Source: an uncultured Pelagibacteraceae bacterium
Lineage (GTDB): Bacteria; Pseudomonadota; Alphaproteobacteria; Pelagibacterales; Pelagibacteraceae
Direction: 5' to 3'
Length of the DNA stretch: 64,000 nucleotides
NCBI GenBank assembly: GCA_902587755.1
Contig: CACIMN010000002.1
Span: 124,001 to 188,000, forward strand
How positions within the stretch are numbered: the stretch's first letter is position 1; every line of letters starts with the position of its first letter. Made by a program: the position numbers and the translations under genes. Of this stretch, positions 1,890-28,051 are shown piece after piece. Below the pieces are notes generated by a model that was not told where the DNA came from, searched no databases, and saw nothing but the letters and a program-made list of their open reading frames with translations.

Positions 1890-3002
1890 ATGGCATTAAA
1901 AAAGTTTGCCTTTAACGTATTAAAAAAAGACAAATTTGCTAGGTGTGGAATAATTGAAACACATCGAGGAAATATACATACACCTGCATTTATGCCTGTT
2001 GGTACTCAAGCTACAGTAAAGGCTTGTACAATAGATGATATAAAAAAAACGGGCTCAGAAATAATACTTTCAAATACTTATCACCTAATGATACGTCCGG
2101 GTGTTGAAAGAGTTCAATCTGCCGGTGGACTTCATAATTTTATGAATTGTGATTTACCTATATTAACTGATTCTGGTGGTTTTCAAGTAATGTCCCTCTC
2201 AAAACTGAATAAGATTGATAGAGTGAAGGGTGCAATATTTAATTCTCATGTTGATGGTAAAAAATTTTATCTTAGTCCTGAGGAGAGTATAAAAATACAG
2301 CTAGGTTTAGATTCGGACATAGTAATGATTATGGATGAGTGTCCAAAGAAAACTAACGATTATGATATTATAAAAAAATCAATGGATCTTTCACTTCATT
2401 GGGCTGAAAGATCTAAAATAGCTTTTGGTAATAATCCTCATAAAGCTTTATTTGGTATTATCCAAGGAGGTCTTTTTAAAGATTTAAGATTAAAATCTCT
2501 GCAAGAATTAGTCAAAATTAGTTTTGATGGATATGCTGTTGGCGGATTAGCGGTAGGTGAGACACAGAATGAAATGTTTTCTGTGTTAGATGATATAAAA
2601 GAATTTTTACCAGAAAAAAAACCACATTATTTAATGGGTGTCGGTACACCATCAGACATAATTGGTGCTGTAAAAAGAGGTATAGACATGTTTGATTGTG
2701 TTCTTCCCACAAGATCTGGAAGAACAGGTCTAGCTTTCACTTGGCAAGGTAGAATCAATATAAAAAATAACAAATTTCAAAATGATAACACGCCATTAGA
2801 CCCTAATTGTGACAATCTAAATTTGAATAAGTATTCAAAAAACTATTTAAATCACTTATTTAATACAAATGAAATTTTAGCATCAATGTTGCTAACTCTT
2901 CATAATATTAATTTTTATCAGCAATTAATGAGATCAATTAGAAAAAATATTTATGAAGGCACTTTTGATGAATTTCATGACAAATACATTGATAAGTTGT
3001 AG
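1890..3002 (+). CDS. tgt: tRNA-guanine transglycosylase (queuine/preQ1 insertion)
   Basis: Exchanges G34 in GUN anticodons for the queuosine precursor preQ1. The 370-residue length is typical. The catalytic Asp lies in LTDSGGFQVMSL (D94), the nucleophile region is MFDCVLPTRSGRTG (D269), and GIIQGG and VGGLAVGE line the base pocket. Oddity: the structural zinc motif CxCxxC...H reads C307-D-N309-L-N-L312, with H338 kept, so two of the three cysteine ligands are replaced by Asn and Leu. The rest of the domain is well conserved and the frame is intact, so this is substitution and not a frameshift. It may be zinc-free or have altered stability. It is the last gene of the gyrA-coaD-ppi-tgt run. Confidence 0.95.
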   Translation: MALKKFAFNVLKKDKFARCGIIETHRGNIHTPAFMPVGTQATVKACTIDDIKKTGSEIILSNTYHLMIRPGVERVQSAGGLHNFMNCDLPILTDSGGFQVMSLSKLNKIDRVKGAIFNSHVDGKKFYLSPEESIKIQLGLDSDIVMIMDECPKKTNDYDIIKKSMDLSLHWAERSKIAFGNNPHKALFGIIQGGLFKDLRLKSLQELVKISFDGYAVGGLAVGETQNEMFSVLDDIKEFLPEKKPHYLMGVGTPSDIIGAVKRGIDMFDCVLPTRSGRTGLAFTWQGRINIKNNKFQNDNTPLDPNCDNLNLNKYSKNYLNHLFNTNEILASMLLTLHNINFYQQLMRSIRKNIYEGTFDEFHDKYIDKL

Positions 3003-3086
3003 CAGTTATCAATTTTTTTGTTCAAATTGACATTTGAAAAATCAGAATAATTCTGTATATAACAATCATTAAGTTGGTTAATTTGG

Positions 3087-3162
<76 letters not shown>

Positions 3163-3171
3163 TTAATTGAT

Positions 3172-3999
3172 TTAACTTATTTCGATTGGTGGGTAATCCA
3201 AGATAACTTCGTTCATTTTATCGTTTAAATCTTTAATTCTATTATCTGAAGAGGGGTGAGTGCTCATAAACTCTGGTGGCTCTTTTCCTTTATTAAGTTT
3301 TTTCATTCTTTCCCAAATTTTAACTGTTTCTCTAATATCATAACCTGACAATGATGAAAAAATCATTCCTAAATAGTCAGCTTCACTTTCTTGTTTTCTA
3401 TTGAAAGGATTTAACAGCCCAATTTGAGTTATTAAACCAACTGTATTTATTCCAGTAGTTCTATTTACTTGAGATAATTTACCTCCACTAAAAATATCAA
3501 TTAATTGAGTTCCAGTATTAACTAAAGTAGCTCTACTTGCTCTTTCAACAGAATGTTTTGCTACAGCGTGAGCAATTTCATGACCCATTACTGCTGCTAA
3601 ACCATCAGTATTTTTGGTTGCTTCAAGTATACCTGTATAAACAGCTATCTTGCCTCCAGGCATACACCATGCATTTCTAACTTTTTTTCTATCGATTAAT
3701 ATATATTCCCATTCAAAATTTATAGTAGGGTCTTCTAATCCAGCTCTATAAAAATACTCAGAAATTGAGTTTTCCATTTTTTTTCCAATTTCTTTAATTT
3801 CATTTAAAGTTTTTGTGTCATCACTCATTTTTTCTTTTTCTTTTATTTTTTCATAAATTGCTGCTGCTTGAGCATTTAGTTTTGCTTCCGAGACAATTTT
3901 TAATTGTTTTCGGTCTGTTATGGGCGCAGTGGTGCAAGACGATAATAATAAACCCCCACATCCACAACCCATATAAGATAAGAATTTTCTTCTATTCAT
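3172..3999 (-). CDS. M48-family zinc metalloprotease, Tat-type lipoprotein
   Basis: Peptidase M48 protein related to the periplasmic quality-control proteases LoiP and BepA. The zinc-binding HEIAH motif is at residues 140-144, and the third ligand (Glu) is in the conserved NRKQESEADYLGM segment. The N terminus is a twin-arginine-like signal (NRRKFLSYMGCGCGG) followed by a lipobox LLLSSC, with Cys22 as the predicted lipidated residue, so it should be exported, possibly folded, and anchored to a membrane. There is no TPR domain, unlike BepA. It is single-gene, convergent with tRNA-Lys and divergent from the small ORF and DUF502 gene. The exact substrate is unknown. Confidence 0.9.
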   Translation of the reverse strand: MNRRKFLSYMGCGCGGLLLSSCTTAPITDRKQLKIVSEAKLNAQAAAIYEKIKEKEKMSDDTKTLNEIKEIGKKMENSISEYFYRAGLEDPTINFEWEYILIDRKKVRNAWCMPGGKIAVYTGILEATKNTDGLAAVMGHEIAHAVAKHSVERASRATLVNTGTQLIDIFSGGKLSQVNRTTGINTVGLITQIGLLNPFNRKQESEADYLGMIFSSLSGYDIRETVKIWERMKKLNKGKEPPEFMSTHPSSDNRIKDLNDKMNEVILDYPPIEIS

Positions 4000-4029
4000 A
4001 ACTATAAAATTTGATAATAGTAGTTTATC

Positions 4030-4107
4030 ATGAATCTTAACAATAAAATATTAATAGTATTATTTATTATTTCAATATTGTTTGTTATTTACGCGAGTTA
4101 TAGTTAA
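4030..4107 (+). CDS. putative 25-residue single-span membrane microprotein
   Basis: A short frame with an ATG start and TAA stop encodes 25 residues: MNLNN, then a hydrophobic helix of about 16 residues (KILIVLFIISILFVIYA), then SYS. It ends four bases before the ATG of the DUF502 membrane protein. In such a compact genome this is the spacing expected of a real upstream cistron or a leader peptide for the next gene. No homologue is recognised and there is no strong Shine-Dalgarno sequence. The alternative is that it is simply the 5' leader of the DUF502 gene. Confidence 0.45.
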   Translation: MNLNNKILIVLFIISILFVIYASYS

Positions 4108-4111
4108 TTTT

Positions 4112-4729
4112 ATGGCTAAAAAAAATAATAAAAAATCATTTTCTTTAACACTTAGAAATTATTTTATTGCTGGCGTTGTTGTTTTAATACCGATAGGTTT
4201 TACTTTATATTTAACTAAAATTTTAATTGGAGTATCTTCAAACTTAATTCCAAAAAATATTAATCCAAATAGCTATTTACCTTTTAATATTCCTGGTGTT
4301 GAAATTGTAATTTCAATTTTACTTATAACTATCGTTGGCGGCCTGTCTTTATCATTTTTTGGAAGAAGAATTCTAAAATTAATTGATGATTTGTTTAAAA
4401 GAATTCCTTTTTTAAGAACCGTTTATTCAGCAATTGTTCAAATGACTGAAACTTTTTCAAAAAAAGATGACGGTAAAAAGAGTGTTGTTTTGATTGAATA
4501 TCCCAGAAAAGGGGTTTGGGCTGTCGGATTTGCTACAAAAGAAAATAAAGGAGAGATGGCAGAAAAAACAGGAAAAAATTTAATTAATGTTTTTGTTCCA
4601 ACCACACCAAATCCAACAAGTGGTTTCTTATTAATGTTTCCAGTAGAAGATGTTATATATTTAAATATGTCTTTTGAAGAAGCTTCTAAATTTATAGTAT
4701 CAGCTGGTACCTCAACAAAAAAATCTTAA
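4112..4729 (+). CDS. DUF502 family integral membrane protein
   Basis: Start placed at ATG 4112 (MAKKNNKKSFSLTLR); a TTG extension to 4082 would add ten unconvincing residues. It has two strong membrane helices, about residues 16-38 (NYFIAGVVVLIPIGFTLYL) and 58-80 (VEIVISILLITIVGGLSL), then a soluble C-terminal domain. The motifs RIPFLRTVYSAIVQ and VPTTPNPTSGFLLMFP are typical of DUF502 proteins, found across bacteria and plants; biochemical function is not established. The 3' end overlaps the convergent recG stop (TTA/TAA share bases). Confidence 0.9.
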   Translation: MAKKNNKKSFSLTLRNYFIAGVVVLIPIGFTLYLTKILIGVSSNLIPKNINPNSYLPFNIPGVEIVISILLITIVGGLSLSFFGRRILKLIDDLFKRIPFLRTVYSAIVQMTETFSKKDDGKKSVVLIEYPRKGVWAVGFATKENKGEMAEKTGKNLINVFVPTTPNPTSGFLLMFPVEDVIYLNMSFEEASKFIVSAGTSTKKS

Positions 4730-17918: not shown

Positions 17919-18000
<82 letters not shown>

Positions 18001-18036
18001 AAGCAAGTATATCAATACTTATTTCATCACAAAACA

Positions 18037-18060
18037 AAACGAGAGGGTAAACGAGAGGGT
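18037..18060 (+). repeat. tandem 12-bp motif AAACGAGAGGGT x2 at left inner end
   Basis: Two perfect adjacent copies of AAACGAGAGGGT, followed by TAATGA. A matching, slightly diverged pair is at the other end of the element (20435-20460). Paired sites with 12-base spacing near both attachment sites are what arm-type binding sites of a tyrosine integrase or a directionality factor would look like; the binding protein is not known. Confidence 0.75.
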
Positions 18061-18115
18061 TAATGAAGTTAGTTTTTAAATATGATATTAAAATATTGTT
18101 ATTTGTTTAAATTAT

Positions 18116-18778
18116 ATGAATTTTCTTTTTAAGATAATTACAAAAATAACATTTCTAGGTAAACTAGTAGAAAAGTTAGGATCAAAAGTACCAATAATAT
18201 TTATTTTTATCTCTTTAATTTTTATAGCTTTTTACATTCCTTATGAATATGAAAACATATTAGAATTTACTGAGAAGTATCCCAATGATAATATTGGTTT
18301 TACATTGAATTTATTAAGACCAATAATAATAAATTTCATTATTTTAATTTTAGTAGTAGCGTCTTTTAAAGCTGTAAATGAACAAAAGAGAAAATTAATT
18401 GAAGAAGAAATCGAACGACAAAAAAAAGCTGATGAATTATTAGCAAAAAAAGAAGAGGCTTTAAGAAAAATTACTGAATTAAAAAATTCATCAATAACAA
18501 AAACTACAGAAAAAATAGTTTCAAAAAAAACCGTAGGGGCTATAGGTGGTTCAGTTATAGGTGCTACATTAGGTGGTTCTTTAGGAATAGCTGGAAAATT
18601 CTTAGGTACAATGGTTTTTATAAATGGTGCATGGGTTTTGGCGCCAATAGGTGGTTTGTTGGGATATATAGCTGTAAAAAAAATTAATAAAAAAAAGGAA
18701 GAAAAAGAAGAGCATAAAAAAATAAAAGAGTATGGTGAAAATATTAATGATCAAACCAGAAATAAAAAAAATGATTGA
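18116..18778 (+). CDS. glycine-zipper membrane protein, element cargo, unknown function
   Basis: 220 residues, not recognised as a known family. Two hydrophobic helices near the N terminus (about 25-42, IIFIFISLIFIAFYI; about 68-84, IIINFIILILVVA), then a charged coiled coil (about 88-122, QKRKLIEEEIERQKKADELL). A Gly/Ala-rich hydrophobic stretch (about 140-185, GAIGGSVIGATLGGSLG ... LAPIGGLLGYIAV) follows with GxxxG spacing like a glycine zipper. The tail (186-220) is Lys/Glu-rich. It is the first gene of the tRNA-Pro element, 57 bases before the helicase and in the same direction. Membrane insertion or pore formation is an inference from the zipper only. Confidence 0.75.
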   Translation: MNFLFKIITKITFLGKLVEKLGSKVPIIFIFISLIFIAFYIPYEYENILEFTEKYPNDNIGFTLNLLRPIIINFIILILVVASFKAVNEQKRKLIEEEIERQKKADELLAKKEEALRKITELKNSSITKTTEKIVSKKTVGAIGGSVIGATLGGSLGIAGKFLGTMVFINGAWVLAPIGGLLGYIAVKKINKKKEEKEEHKKIKEYGENINDQTRNKKND

Positions 18779-18835
18779 AGTTTTGATTGCAATTGAATTA
18801 ATTTTTTTAACATATAATTTAGTTAGTGACTAATT

Positions 18836-20431
18836 ATGAATTACGTCACACAATTTGATCTTGGAACAGTTTTACCTAAAAATTTTTATGAGTCTAAGCA
18901 GTTTAAACAATTAAGAAGTAATTTAGAAAACTCGAAAAAATCATACTTTCTGACAGGAAAAGCAGGAACTGGCAAATCTACATTTGTTGAATATTTTAGA
19001 TTAAATACTAATAAAAATGTTATGATACTTGCCTATACGGGTATTGTAGCAATTAAATGTAGAGGAAGAACAATTCACTCTTTTTTTGGCTTTCCACATC
19101 ATATTTTAAAAAAAAAAGATTGTAAAATTTCAAGAAATCAAGAATTTTTAAAAGCATTAAATACATTAATTATAGATGAAGTTTCTATGGTTAATCCAAA
19201 TTTAATGGATGCAATTGATCAATCTTTAAAAATTAATAGAGGAAACGATTTGCCTTTTGGTGGTGTTCAAATGTTGTTCGTAGGGGATGTATTTCAACTG
19301 TCACCTATAGCAAAGGATAAAGAAAAAGAAGTTTTGGACAAGATGTATCCCGATGGTAATTTTTTTTTTAATTCAAAATGGTTTAAGATTTTAGATCCAA
19401 AAAGAATCGAATTTGAAAAAATTTTTAGACAAAAAGACTTATCTTTCATTCAAAAATTAGAAAATATAAGAAGAAATGAGATTTCAGATGAGGTTCTTAA
19501 TTTCTTTAATAAAAGAGTTAATAAAAAAGTTACCAACGATAATGTTAGTTATGATGATAGATTAAATAATTTAATCAAAAAATATCCAAAAACATTTGAA
19601 AAATGGAGAAACTACAATGATGAAGATCAAAGTAAAGATATGAATGAAATCAAATTAAAATTTCCAAAGGCGTATAAAAAATGGTCATTAAAAGAAGATA
19701 ATGCCTTAAAAAAACTTCTAAATGATAAAAAAGATATATTTGAGATTTCCAAACTTTTTCAAAGAAAACCTTCCGCTGTCTCATCAAGAATAATTAAATT
19801 TGAAGATGAAAATTTAGAAAATATACCTGATGGTCTTATATTATTAGCTCCAACTAATAGAAGAACTTTTCAAATAAATCATATTAAGCTAAATAATTTA
19901 GCCTCACCTGAATTTACTTTTAAAGGAAAAATTACAGGTTCATTTAAAACAAGCGATATGATGTCTGAATTAGAATTAAAATTGAAAGTTGGAGCACAAA
20001 TTATGCTTACCAAAAATGATCCTTATGGTCAGTGGGTAAATGGTACAATAGGGTTTGTAGATAAATTAGAAAAAGATCAAATTATTGTAAAAATTGGCAA
20101 TAAAACATGTCAAGTTGAAAAAGTCTTGTGGGAAAAATTTGATTATTTTTTAAAAGATGGAAAATTTGAACCAAAAGTAATAGGAACATTTGAACAATAT
20201 CCAATTAGGCTAGCCTGGGCAGCAACTATTCATAAATGTCAGGGTCAAACTTTTGAAAAAGCAATTGTAGATTTTGATTCAGGTTCATTTGCTCATGGCA
20301 TGACTTATGTAGCCTTAAGCAGAGTTAAATCTTTAGATGGATTAAATCTTATTAGACCAATCAAATCTAGTGATATTAGGTTTGATGATAGAATTTATAA
20401 ATTTCAGAATACTGTAGAGTTATTTAATTAA
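18836..20431 (+). CDS. Pif1-like superfamily 1 helicase with inserted Myb/SANT-like segment
   Basis: 531 residues. Pif1/RecD-type 5'-3' helicase motifs: Walker A TGKAGTGKST (40-49), AYTGIVAI with RTIHSFF (66-84), Walker B LIIDEVSM (111-118), VGDVFQLSPI (149-158), and C-terminal WAATIHKCQGQTFEKAIVD (461-479) with YVALSRVKSL (491-500). Between the ATPase halves (about 240-322) is an extra piece: two related lines (KYPKTFEKWRNYNDED, 249-264; KFPKAYKKWSLKEDNALKKL, 275-294) leading into EISKLFQRKPSAVSSRI, which reads like a Myb/SANT or GcrA-type helix-turn-helix. It could unwind DNA during transfer or replication of the element, or act in defence; neither is shown. It belongs to the tRNA-Pro element. 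Confidence 0.9.
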   Translation: MNYVTQFDLGTVLPKNFYESKQFKQLRSNLENSKKSYFLTGKAGTGKSTFVEYFRLNTNKNVMILAYTGIVAIKCRGRTIHSFFGFPHHILKKKDCKISRNQEFLKALNTLIIDEVSMVNPNLMDAIDQSLKINRGNDLPFGGVQMLFVGDVFQLSPIAKDKEKEVLDKMYPDGNFFFNSKWFKILDPKRIEFEKIFRQKDLSFIQKLENIRRNEISDEVLNFFNKRVNKKVTNDNVSYDDRLNNLIKKYPKTFEKWRNYNDEDQSKDMNEIKLKFPKAYKKWSLKEDNALKKLLNDKKDIFEISKLFQRKPSAVSSRIIKFEDENLENIPDGLILLAPTNRRTFQINHIKLNNLASPEFTFKGKITGSFKTSDMMSELELKLKVGAQIMLTKNDPYGQWVNGTIGFVDKLEKDQIIVKIGNKTCQVEKVLWEKFDYFLKDGKFEPKVIGTFEQYPIRLAWAATIHKCQGQTFEKAIVDFDSGSFAHGMTYVALSRVKSLDGLNLIRPIKSSDIRFDDRIYKFQNTVELFN

Positions 20432-20434
20432 ATT

Positions 20435-20460
20435 AAACGAGAGGATTTTGAGAGGGTTAA
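20435..20460 (+). repeat. paired GAGAGG motif at right inner end
   Basis: AAACGAGAGG (20435-20444), then five bases, then GAGAGGGTTAA (20450-20460). This aligns with the left-end block (AAACGAGAGG at 18037, GAGAGGGTTAA at 18052) with the same spacing; only the bases between the two motifs differ. It begins four bases after the helicase stop codon and has the same orientation as the left block. Confidence 0.7.
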
Positions 20461-20587
20461 CGATAAGTCAATTTGATATATCACTCACCAATCAACGATT
20501 ATTTTATGGGTAAAATGTCAATTTTTCTAATTCAATTATTAGATGAATTGGTATAAACACTTTACAAATCGGAAGTTTGTTGGATAA

Positions 20588-20616
20588 GTTCGAATCCTGC
20601 CACTCCGACCATCATT
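20588..20616 (+). repeat. right attachment-site repeat (attR), 3' tRNA-Pro fragment
   Basis: Exact copy of 17972-18000, containing half the T arm and the acceptor 3' strand with CCA of tRNA-Pro. The 40 bases before it (TTGGTATAAACACTTTACAA and onward) show only a vague tRNA-like D-arm (TTGGTA) and no acceptor partner, so this is not a functional tRNA. The NDUFS4-like start codon follows one base later. Confidence 0.9.
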
Positions 20617-27097: not shown

Positions 27098-28051
27098 TTA
27101 AATCTTCACTTTATTAAGTGCATTATTTTTAAATATATTGGCTTCTCTAATATATCTTCTAACCATTTGTGTTGTTTTGTGACCAGTCATTGCCATAATA
27201 CTACGTTCATCAGCACCAGATTCTGCGGCAACAGTTGCAAAACCAGATCTTAAACTATGTCCTGCAAAATTTTTATTCTCAATACCTGCTAAATTTAAAT
27301 ATTCTTTCATTAATAAAACTACTGATTGGTCAGTTAATCTTTTTTCTGTTAAAAATGATCCTTTAGAAAATCTCCTAAAAATAGGTCCAGATTTAATTTT
27401 AGAAATTTCTAGCCATTTTTTAAGATTTGCTACAGGGCAATAGTTTTCGTTAGTAAAATAGGGTAGTCCTTTAACCATTCCTTCACCGAATTGATCAGTT
27501 TTTGATCTTCTCACAGTGATTTTAAGACCCTCAGTTACAAATTCTAAGTCTTCGTGATCGATAGAGATTAGTTCAGTTCGTCTAAAACCACCTCCAAAGC
27601 CCACTAAGAAAATTGACTTGTCCCTATACTTCTTTATGTCTTCTATTTTTTGTTCATTTATAATATTAATTATTGATTTTAAATGATTGATTAATATGGG
27701 TTTTTTACCTTTTTGAATGCTTCCTTTTACCCTTTTTATTCCCATTAAATTTTCAACAATAATTGGGTGTTTTGTATCTAAATAATGCCCTTTGAGTTTA
27801 TGCACCATGCTTATAGACACTAATCTTCTTCTTAAAGTGCTGATTTTTGAATTTTTAGAAAGATAGGTTAGGTATAAAGACACTATTTTTGGCTCTGATG
27901 GCAATGAATTTAAACCATGTTTAGCACAAAATACTTCAAAGTCTTTGAAGTCTGATTTATATGCTCTTAAAGTATTGTTTGCTTTAGAGCTTTTAAGATT
28001 ATTTAAAGTTGACTCTTGAAGCGATTTTAGGTCTGTTGTCAGTTCATTCAT
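27098..28051 (-). CDS. tyrosine recombinase / phage-type integrase
   Basis: 317 residues: N-terminal SAM-like core-binding domain (about 10-100) and catalytic domain (about 115-305). Active-site residues are Arg157/158 in GFRRTELISI, Lys184 in RRSKTDQ, His265 and Arg268 in GHSLRSG, His291 in MTGHKTT and Tyr300 in VRRYIREA, so it looks active. The XerC/XerD-sized protein lacks an arm-binding extension. It stands at the border of the glycosyltransferase group. An inverted repeat shaped like a recombinase core site begins four bases before its ATG. It may be the trans-acting recombinase of the tRNA-Pro element 6.5 kb away, but this is not shown. Confidence 0.93.
   Translation of the reverse strand: MNELTTDLKSLQESTLNNLKSSKANNTLRAYKSDFKDFEVFCAKHGLNSLPSEPKIVSLYLTYLSKNSKISTLRRRLVSISMVHKLKGHYLDTKHPIIVENLMGIKRVKGSIQKGKKPILINHLKSIINIINEQKIEDIKKYRDKSIFLVGFGGGFRRTELISIDHEDLEFVTEGLKITVRRSKTDQFGEGMVKGLPYFTNENYCPVANLKKWLEISKIKSGPIFRRFSKGSFLTEKRLTDQSVVLLMKEYLNLAGIENKNFAGHSLRSGFATVAAESGADERSIMAMTGHKTTQMVRRYIREANIFKNNALNKVKI

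Follow-up and report, generated by a model that had tools for sequence, protein, structure and literature searches.

Within the 64-kb window, which is the whole stretch of DNA that was analysed, a tRNA-Pro gene is followed by a small element that is bounded by two identical direct repeats and contains two genes, the second of which encodes a Pif1-family helicase with an internal insert. The features are as follows (all on the plus strand, with the basis of each assignment in parentheses):

17919..17995, +, tRNA-Pro (TGG), the integration target (ARAGORN)
17972..18000, +, left 29-bp direct repeat, covering the 3' end of the tRNA plus the next 5 bases (exact repeat)
18001..18062, +, left arm; its GAGAGG repeats form a pair with starts at 18041 and 18053 (weakly similar to phage contig L340 in the P' arm of the latter)
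18116..18778, +, protein of 220 aa that by eye looks membrane-type and has a stretch rich in glycine (homologous DNA beside the L090 helicase)
18836..20431, +, Pif1-family helicase, 531 aa (ORF, Pfam and PDB sequence comparison)
19529..19816, +, 96-residue insert at the 1A-2A junction of the helicase, residues 232-327 (missing from L090 and from all 159 further rows that were measured)
19562..19636, +, incomplete first copy of an internal repeat of the insert, LNNLIKKYPKTFEKWRNYNDEDQSK, residues 243-267 (score reached by 1/5000 shuffles)
19676..19813, +, predicted three-helix domain of Myb/SANT/GcrA-like type, residues 281-326 (91.7% hhalign probability against the tails of SAR11 Pif1 proteins; model m65428199eb3c)
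20437..20587, +, right arm; its GAGAGG repeats form a pair with starts at 20439 and 20450 (homology to the L335 attP arm)
20588..20616, +, right 29-bp direct repeat (exact repeat)

The helicase ORF matches PF05970 over residues 25-219 (96.8 bits, cut-off 25.9), and its GTGKST, IIDEVSM and VALSR stretches, which are SF1B motifs, align with those of its relatives. Among PDB sequences it matches 8bnv (E = 6.4e-86) over residues 22-236 and 332-526, the residues between them being unmatched. The helicase was found in one of 201 genomes of the genus and nine of 297 of the family; a separate draw from the order found it in six of 297, two more members of the window's genus among them. A viral scan with the window protein alone returned two pattern matches, neither of them confirmed. 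The nearest homologue found is encoded by L090, from the uncultured Pelagibacteraceae bacterium AG-422-K08, and is 81.8% identical in amino acids over 435 aligned codons. Since dN is 0.116 between these two helicase cores and dS is 1.33 (NG86), a value near saturation, the core appears to be under purifying selection.

The two 29-mers lie 2,616 bp apart, start to start, and delimit an element of 2.6 kb (17972-20616) in which the two genes listed above are the only ORFs of at least 60 aa. The downstream gene is present in 50 genomes, and the sister locus was fetched from seven of these. Six of the seven loci show an empty site, with the flanks adjacent and a single copy of the repeat, so that repeats of a tRNA 3' end and an empty site in relatives, the marks by which integrative elements are recognised, are both found here. 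The seventh locus, G250 (L053:1983-4089), contains a different insertion of about 2.08 kb with ORFs of 306 aa and 219 aa; its right end is 95% identical to that of the window element, and the 219-aa ORF is PrsW-like by eye. A third tRNA-Pro element with a related right end was found in G308 (L085:7273-8480). It is 1.19 kb long, has 21-bp repeats 1,187 bp apart and contains one ORF of 297 aa, for which there was no PHROG match at E ≤ 0.1 and no PADLOC match. In the search with the right end, 14 of 300 genus genomes gave a match; outside the window's own genome, G250 and G308, the matching stretches measure 20-48 bases. As for the gene content, the 220-aa protein has a weak PADLOC match to LeoBC (E = 5e-4), and L090 carries DNA homologous to both genes of the element, the upstream gene being there only a 104-aa ORF counted from its ATG. 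In L090 the homologous two-gene cassette (positions 2000-4120) is flanked by paired GTGGGGTAC-type repeats; a search of that locus for a tRNA found none. The window element contains no integrase ORF, and the single PF00589 match of the genome (window positions 27143-27682) lies outside it.

The arms of the element resemble those of phage attachment sites. The 24-bp core is held by 51 viral stretches, of which the 26 with a GC content below 0.36 were inspected, the remaining 25 (GC 0.36 or more) falling outside this set. In eight of the 26 the core stands by itself, the remainder of the tRNA being absent. In seven of these eight attP contigs a 335-aa protein is encoded within 0.75 kb of the core, and the eighth contig ends about 400 bp away. 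The protein tested, that of L335, matches PHROG integrase families (phrog_1, E = 1.5e-17) and corresponds to a tyrosine integrase of marine phage contigs; the stretch L335:3731-5279 of a marine phage contig contains both the tRNA-Pro attP and this 335-aa integrase. The right arm of the window element is homologous to the L335 attP arm (71% over 124 nt, E = 5e-13, 0/1000 shuffles), the distance to the core being equal in the two, and the right arm of G308 is likewise similar to the phage attP arm (0/1000 shuffles). For the left arm, the score against L340 is reached by 3/1000 shuffles and that against L335 by 665/1000, the latter being no signal. From their GC content, the core and the arm homology, we infer that phages with this attP infect SAR11. 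The assignment of phages to SAR11 through their integrase and tRNA attachment site is described in PMC3861242. By tblastn the phage integrase matched nothing in the window and nothing in eight loci of related elements; it also had no match in 250 genus genomes (a search run without a positive control) or in the phage collection, so that the helper is a presumed one. Similarly, the DNA patterns of the right end had no match in viral contigs, and the right end had none in the phage collection.

Paired direct repeats occur at matching positions in the element, where they are of GAGAGG type, and in the phage, where they are of the related but different CAGAGTGTG type. Four of the five plus-strand GAGAGG occurrences in the window are the arm repeats of the element. 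Because their positions match the attP repeat pairs, and because the elements of G250 and G308 at the same tRNA-Pro have GAGAGG-type repeats and no helicase, these repeats are most likely integrase sites and not targets of the helicase, to judge from the sequences compared. Arm-type sites, as such repeats would be called, is a term that comes from the lambda-type integrases. The earlier suggestion that the insert reads a GAGAGGG motif is thereby weakened, and a helicase steered to GAGAGGG is the least supported step of any mechanism considered here and an unlikely one.

Other Pif1 genes of the SAR11 order, whose products carry a C-terminal tail that will be described below, are also found in tRNA elements. 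In G543 and G568, both of the window's genus, a tail-bearing Pif1 lies behind a tRNA-Lys in elements with repeats of 48 bp and 44 bp respectively. The 1.96-kb element of G568 (L061:3252-5254) has the Pif1 as its sole listed ORF of at least 80 aa within the repeats, and paired GTGTACAGT repeats were seen near the end of this element. L095 has a tail-bearing Pif1 in a tRNA-Lys element with 28-bp repeats, where the right arm is lost and the repeat follows directly after the Pif1 stop. Only three of 73 GTDB loci (L093-L095; 73 being 80 loci minus seven without a recognised ORF) have repeats that overlap a tRNA, two more having repeats without a tRNA, and none of nine loci from other SAR11-order genomes has a flanking repeat of at least 16 bp or a tRNA (the gene is cut by the contig end in one of them). 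The presence of Pif1 in tRNA elements is thus limited to a few SAR11 lineages and is no general property of Pif1. Elsewhere, a Pif1 relative in G124 is located beside a Cas4-like nuclease and near a gene whose product resembles, by eye, a cytosine methylase, and the 1118-aa protein encoded just upstream of the G504 Pif1 (L059:2858-6211) has a match to MkoA (E = 8e-43) and weak ones to Cas4.

Several scenarios may explain an element of this kind. One possibility is that the helicase is anti-phage defence cargo, which the insert would steer to invading phage DNA. The different cargo of the same-site elements in other genomes is in keeping with this, as are the neighbours of the related Pif1 proteins, namely the Cas4-like nuclease and the methylase-like gene of G124 and the MkoA/Cas4-matching protein of G504. 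Nevertheless, the PADLOC matches of the window helicase are only partial ones to helicase domains, and a Pif1 that is the sole listed ORF of at least 80 aa in its element, as in G568, would suit a replication gene equally, so that we regard the defence scenario as possible but rather unlikely. Alternatively, the element could be the remnant of a decayed prophage or island and not a hitch-hiker with a selected minimal content. Bounding repeats without an integrase, and the loss of the right arm in L095, are what decay would leave. Yet it would be hard for independent decay to produce, at one tRNA-Pro, three different cargoes of 1.2-2.6 kb whose right arms are related, together with Pif1 genes at tRNA-Lys, and the apparent purifying selection on the helicase core also speaks against it. 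Decay is accordingly doubtful as an explanation, and an integrase-less hitch-hiking element is the reading retained below.

The insert itself was delimited by aligning the window helicase with L090, which lacks exactly the 96 residues 232-327. The earlier note had seen an interruption between the two ATPase halves at 19575-19805 (residues about 247-323); this is borne out by the L090 alignment, which extends the insert to 19529-19816, and by the PDB matches that flank the gap. The spacing from FRQ to LAPTN is 141 residues in the window protein versus a median of 46 and a maximum of 67 in 159 other rows. These rows come from the 158 of 160 GTDB and IMG/VR loci that gave a frame, the two others being left out of the count, and from G504, a gene identical with that of L091. 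The insert is known solely from the window's genome; the 160 loci are the best-scoring ones of the scans and not a census, and insert-bearing relatives may exist elsewhere. An ordinary helicase 1B or 2B subdomain, the identity that would have spoken against a special insert, is excluded: PF21530, the 2B domain, matches residues 377-409, outside the insert (22.6 bits, just below the cut-off of 23.9), and homologues without the insert are complete. The two similar lines noticed earlier within the insert also exceed chance, with a local alignment score of 46 that one of 5000 shuffles equalled, but the first copy (residues 243-267) is only the shortened start of the second, and the full domain continues from the second alone. 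This domain, residues 281-326, begins with W-S-L-K-E-D-N-A-L and finishes with R-K-P-S-A-V-S-S-R-I.

A C-terminal tail of similar pattern, W[ST]..DD..L..L, is present in eight of the ten relatives in alignment A1, all of the SAR11 order, G504 and G040 being those without it. A profile of seven tails scores the insert at 12.0 bits, a value equalled by 3/20000 shuffles, and over the 168 ORFs of the window it gives 8.2 for the helicase ORF and at most 6.1 for all others, these profiles of tails and insert being short. With hhalign, the insert alone aligns to the tails across 42 columns without a gap (probability 91.7%; E = 7.6e-7, calculated for one comparison). Six of the eight members of the insert-plus-tails alignment match phrog_323, annotated as a D5-like transcriptional regulator, at E ≤ 1 (best 5.4e-5); for the insert itself E is 0.011 when 46 aa are used and 5.1e-4 when 74 aa are used. 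Relatives of the insert outside these proteins were sought with less result. Among 250 genus genomes, 24 including the window's own had a match at E ≤ 0.1, the best foreign one (E = 0.00108) being treated as chance; the phage collection had none at E ≤ 10, and five pattern matches in viral contigs included no relative. With profile A2, 19 of 118 family genomes had a match at E ≤ 0.01, strong only in the window's own genome and in G045, the weaker ones (E = 2.2e-4 or worse) covering 22-31 of the 46 positions and falling for the most part in a protein 875-898 aa long.

The window helicase and L090 are sister sequences (100/99) within a clade also including G504 and L092 (100/99). The tree was reconstructed from 38 rows, with hinge and tail cut from 32 of them and the hinge kept in six SAR11 rows, and columns filled in fewer than 30% of rows were dropped. 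All four members of this clade are without tails, whereas the tail-bearing proteins belong to a separate SAR11 clade (99/98). Since the window's own clade lacks the C-terminal tail, and since the window protein and L090 are sisters inside it, the module is a recent internal gain of the window lineage, made after its split from L090. The module, which is related by profile comparison to that of the tail-bearing SAR11 Pif1 proteins, is C-terminal there and internal in the window helicase. A simple relocation of the helicase's own tail is ruled out, as the three nearest relatives have neither tail nor insert. The donor may have been a tail-bearing Pif1 or a phage protein, the genus genomes, phage collection and viral contigs searched having yielded no closer one.

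An AlphaFold2 model of the insert (m65428199eb3c) has a mean pLDDT of 75.7 and helices at residues 285-296, 301-308 and 312-326, the blocks across model residues 51-90 having values of 86-90 and the terminal one a value of 61. As the tails were used as its alignment, the model presupposes the homology of insert and tails. In a model of the full-length helicase the core is mostly confident, and the insert, at a pLDDT of 39-53, shows helices at almost identical positions. VIA-align, run against 46 chains, gave Z scores of 6.2 for spliceosome chains (6qdv_O), 5.5 for Reb1, 5.4 for the GcrA DNA-binding domain and 4.0 for a SANT domain, Z values in this range, those of about 6 included, possibly reflecting only a common arrangement according to the tool's own warning. 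We take 6qdv_O to be CDC5L, a Myb protein. Several of the neighbours belong to spliceosome and deacetylase complexes, and transposase is also represented. Foldseek against the PDB returned 22 matches, none at E ≤ 0.001; one of the 22 is 5yiu, the DNA-binding domain of GcrA (TMt 0.79, E = 7.3). The BFVD search likewise had no match at E ≤ 0.001, and its matches, all above E = 0.1, include viral proteins labelled SANT or Myb-like.

Sequence comparisons with the same families were less favourable. Neither the insert nor the tails matched any DNA-binding family of Pfam, Myb/SANT and PF07750 included; a PDB sequence search with the insert had 0 matches, and the Myb chain 1h88_C compared with the profile gave E = 0.87. 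Membership of GcrA by sequence is ruled out by this lack of a Pfam match and by an hhalign probability of 0.2% for the insert against ten GcrA proteins from SAR11-order genomes, against which the SAR11 Pif1 tails reach 33%. Myb repeats usually have several tryptophans, and residues 281-326 contain only one. The window's genome, whose assembly is 96% complete, has no GcrA (PF07750) match, and 17 of the 21 genomes searched, its own included among the 21, have one. The earlier reading of the insert as SANT- or GcrA-like thus holds in part. The predicted three helices and their Myb/SANT/GcrA neighbours agree with it, the resemblance being one of arrangement; a statistically strong fold match, a significant sequence match to the GcrA, Myb or SANT domains and GcrA membership do not accompany it. 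A Myb/SANT/GcrA-like three-helix fold is likely according to these models, and membership in a named family is not established.

The function of such a fold can be interpreted in several ways. Some SANT domains bind proteins, and the module could bind a protein such as a helper replication protein, an SSB or an integrase in place of DNA. The spliceosome and deacetylase complex chains among its neighbours are compatible with this, and the fold by itself would allow either ligand. Nevertheless, the GcrA, Reb1 and transposase neighbours and the match to PHROG 323, a transcription regulator, favour DNA, and a protein ligand seems improbable. Just as improbable is that the insert is a nearly neutral expansion of the linker, derived from a partly duplicated lysine-rich helical stretch and devoid of a DNA-binding function: its presence in a single genome, its GC content (0.235 versus 0.271 in the remainder of the helicase gene), its internal duplication and its low pLDDT in the full-length model would fit, whereas its matches to the tails by profile and hhalign and the predicted three-helix fold with Myb/SANT/GcrA neighbours would not. 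On balance, the insert is probably a small Myb/SANT/GcrA-like DNA-binding module gained in the 1A-2A linker of a functional Pif1, the helicase belonging to an integrase-less hitch-hiking element and being tethered to DNA.

According to this preferred interpretation, a two-gene element of 2.6 kb would have entered the tRNA-Pro 3' end through a phage-like attP, and, because it contains no integrase, it would presumably rely on one that a phage provides in trans. A module related to the C-terminal tails of SAR11 Pif1 proteins would recently have been inserted into the 1A-2A linker of its helicase, where it may replace the missing tail by tethering the enzyme to duplex DNA beside the unwound strand. 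Such a tether could raise the residence of the helicase on the replicating DNA of the element or of its helper, and the helicase might in that case help to copy the element during phage infection or else hinder the phage. As the earlier note proposed, the insert may direct the helicase to element ends or to invading DNA.

Known systems offer partial parallels. PMC9964779 describes bacterial Pif1 helicases with a C-terminal WYL domain in Deferribacter desulfuricans and Sulfurihydrogenibium, and reports that in a thermophilic Pif1 this domain tethers the motor next to its substrate. These proteins share with the window helicase the same core with an added nucleic-acid-contacting domain (predicted in the case of the window protein), but their addition is C-terminal and has a WYL fold, whereas here a three-helix module lies in the 1A-2A linker. 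By analogy, the insert and the C-terminal tails of its relatives may tether the motor as the WYL domain does. Among mobile elements, the PICMI satellites of PMC10803314 are small, site-specific and phage-dependent elements of marine bacteria, and the window element is also small, site-specific and marine; their core genes include an integrase, AlpA and a primase, whereas the window element has two genes in 2.6 kb and lacks an integrase of its own, a mark of phage satellites. Tycheposons, according to PMC10872708, are likewise small, site-specific and tRNA-bounded in marine bacteria, but the one presented there has a tyrosine recombinase. A parallel in mobilisation would be that of CALIN arrays and MITEs, which, according to PMC11389934, have no recombinase of their own and are mobilised in trans by a related one, as is proposed for the window element; their recombinases are of other classes, whereas a phage-type tyrosine integrase and a tRNA attB would serve here. 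Literature searches found no publication on Pif1 with phage satellites, helicase and integrase, none on SAR11 satellites with tRNA, mobile genetic elements and helper phages, and, judged by title, none on a bacterial Pif1 among those on Pif1 with SANT or Myb.

A broader scenario can be put forward tentatively. SAR11 could harbour micro-satellites, 1.2-2.6 kb long and without an integrase, which as a class would imitate at tRNA-Pro and at tRNA-Lys the attP found in temperate marine phages. Some would have little beyond Pif1, and in the window lineage the placement of a helix-turn-helix inside the helicase would have created an origin- or helper-recognising protein of replication or interference. 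SAR11 is an abundant group of ocean bacteria, and the findings point to very small elements without an integrase in it, which would need integrases provided in trans by phages in order to move. Within one of them, the existence of an 82%-identical sister helicase without the insert provides a natural domain-insertion experiment for a DNA-binding-like module in the 1A-2A hinge of Pif1.
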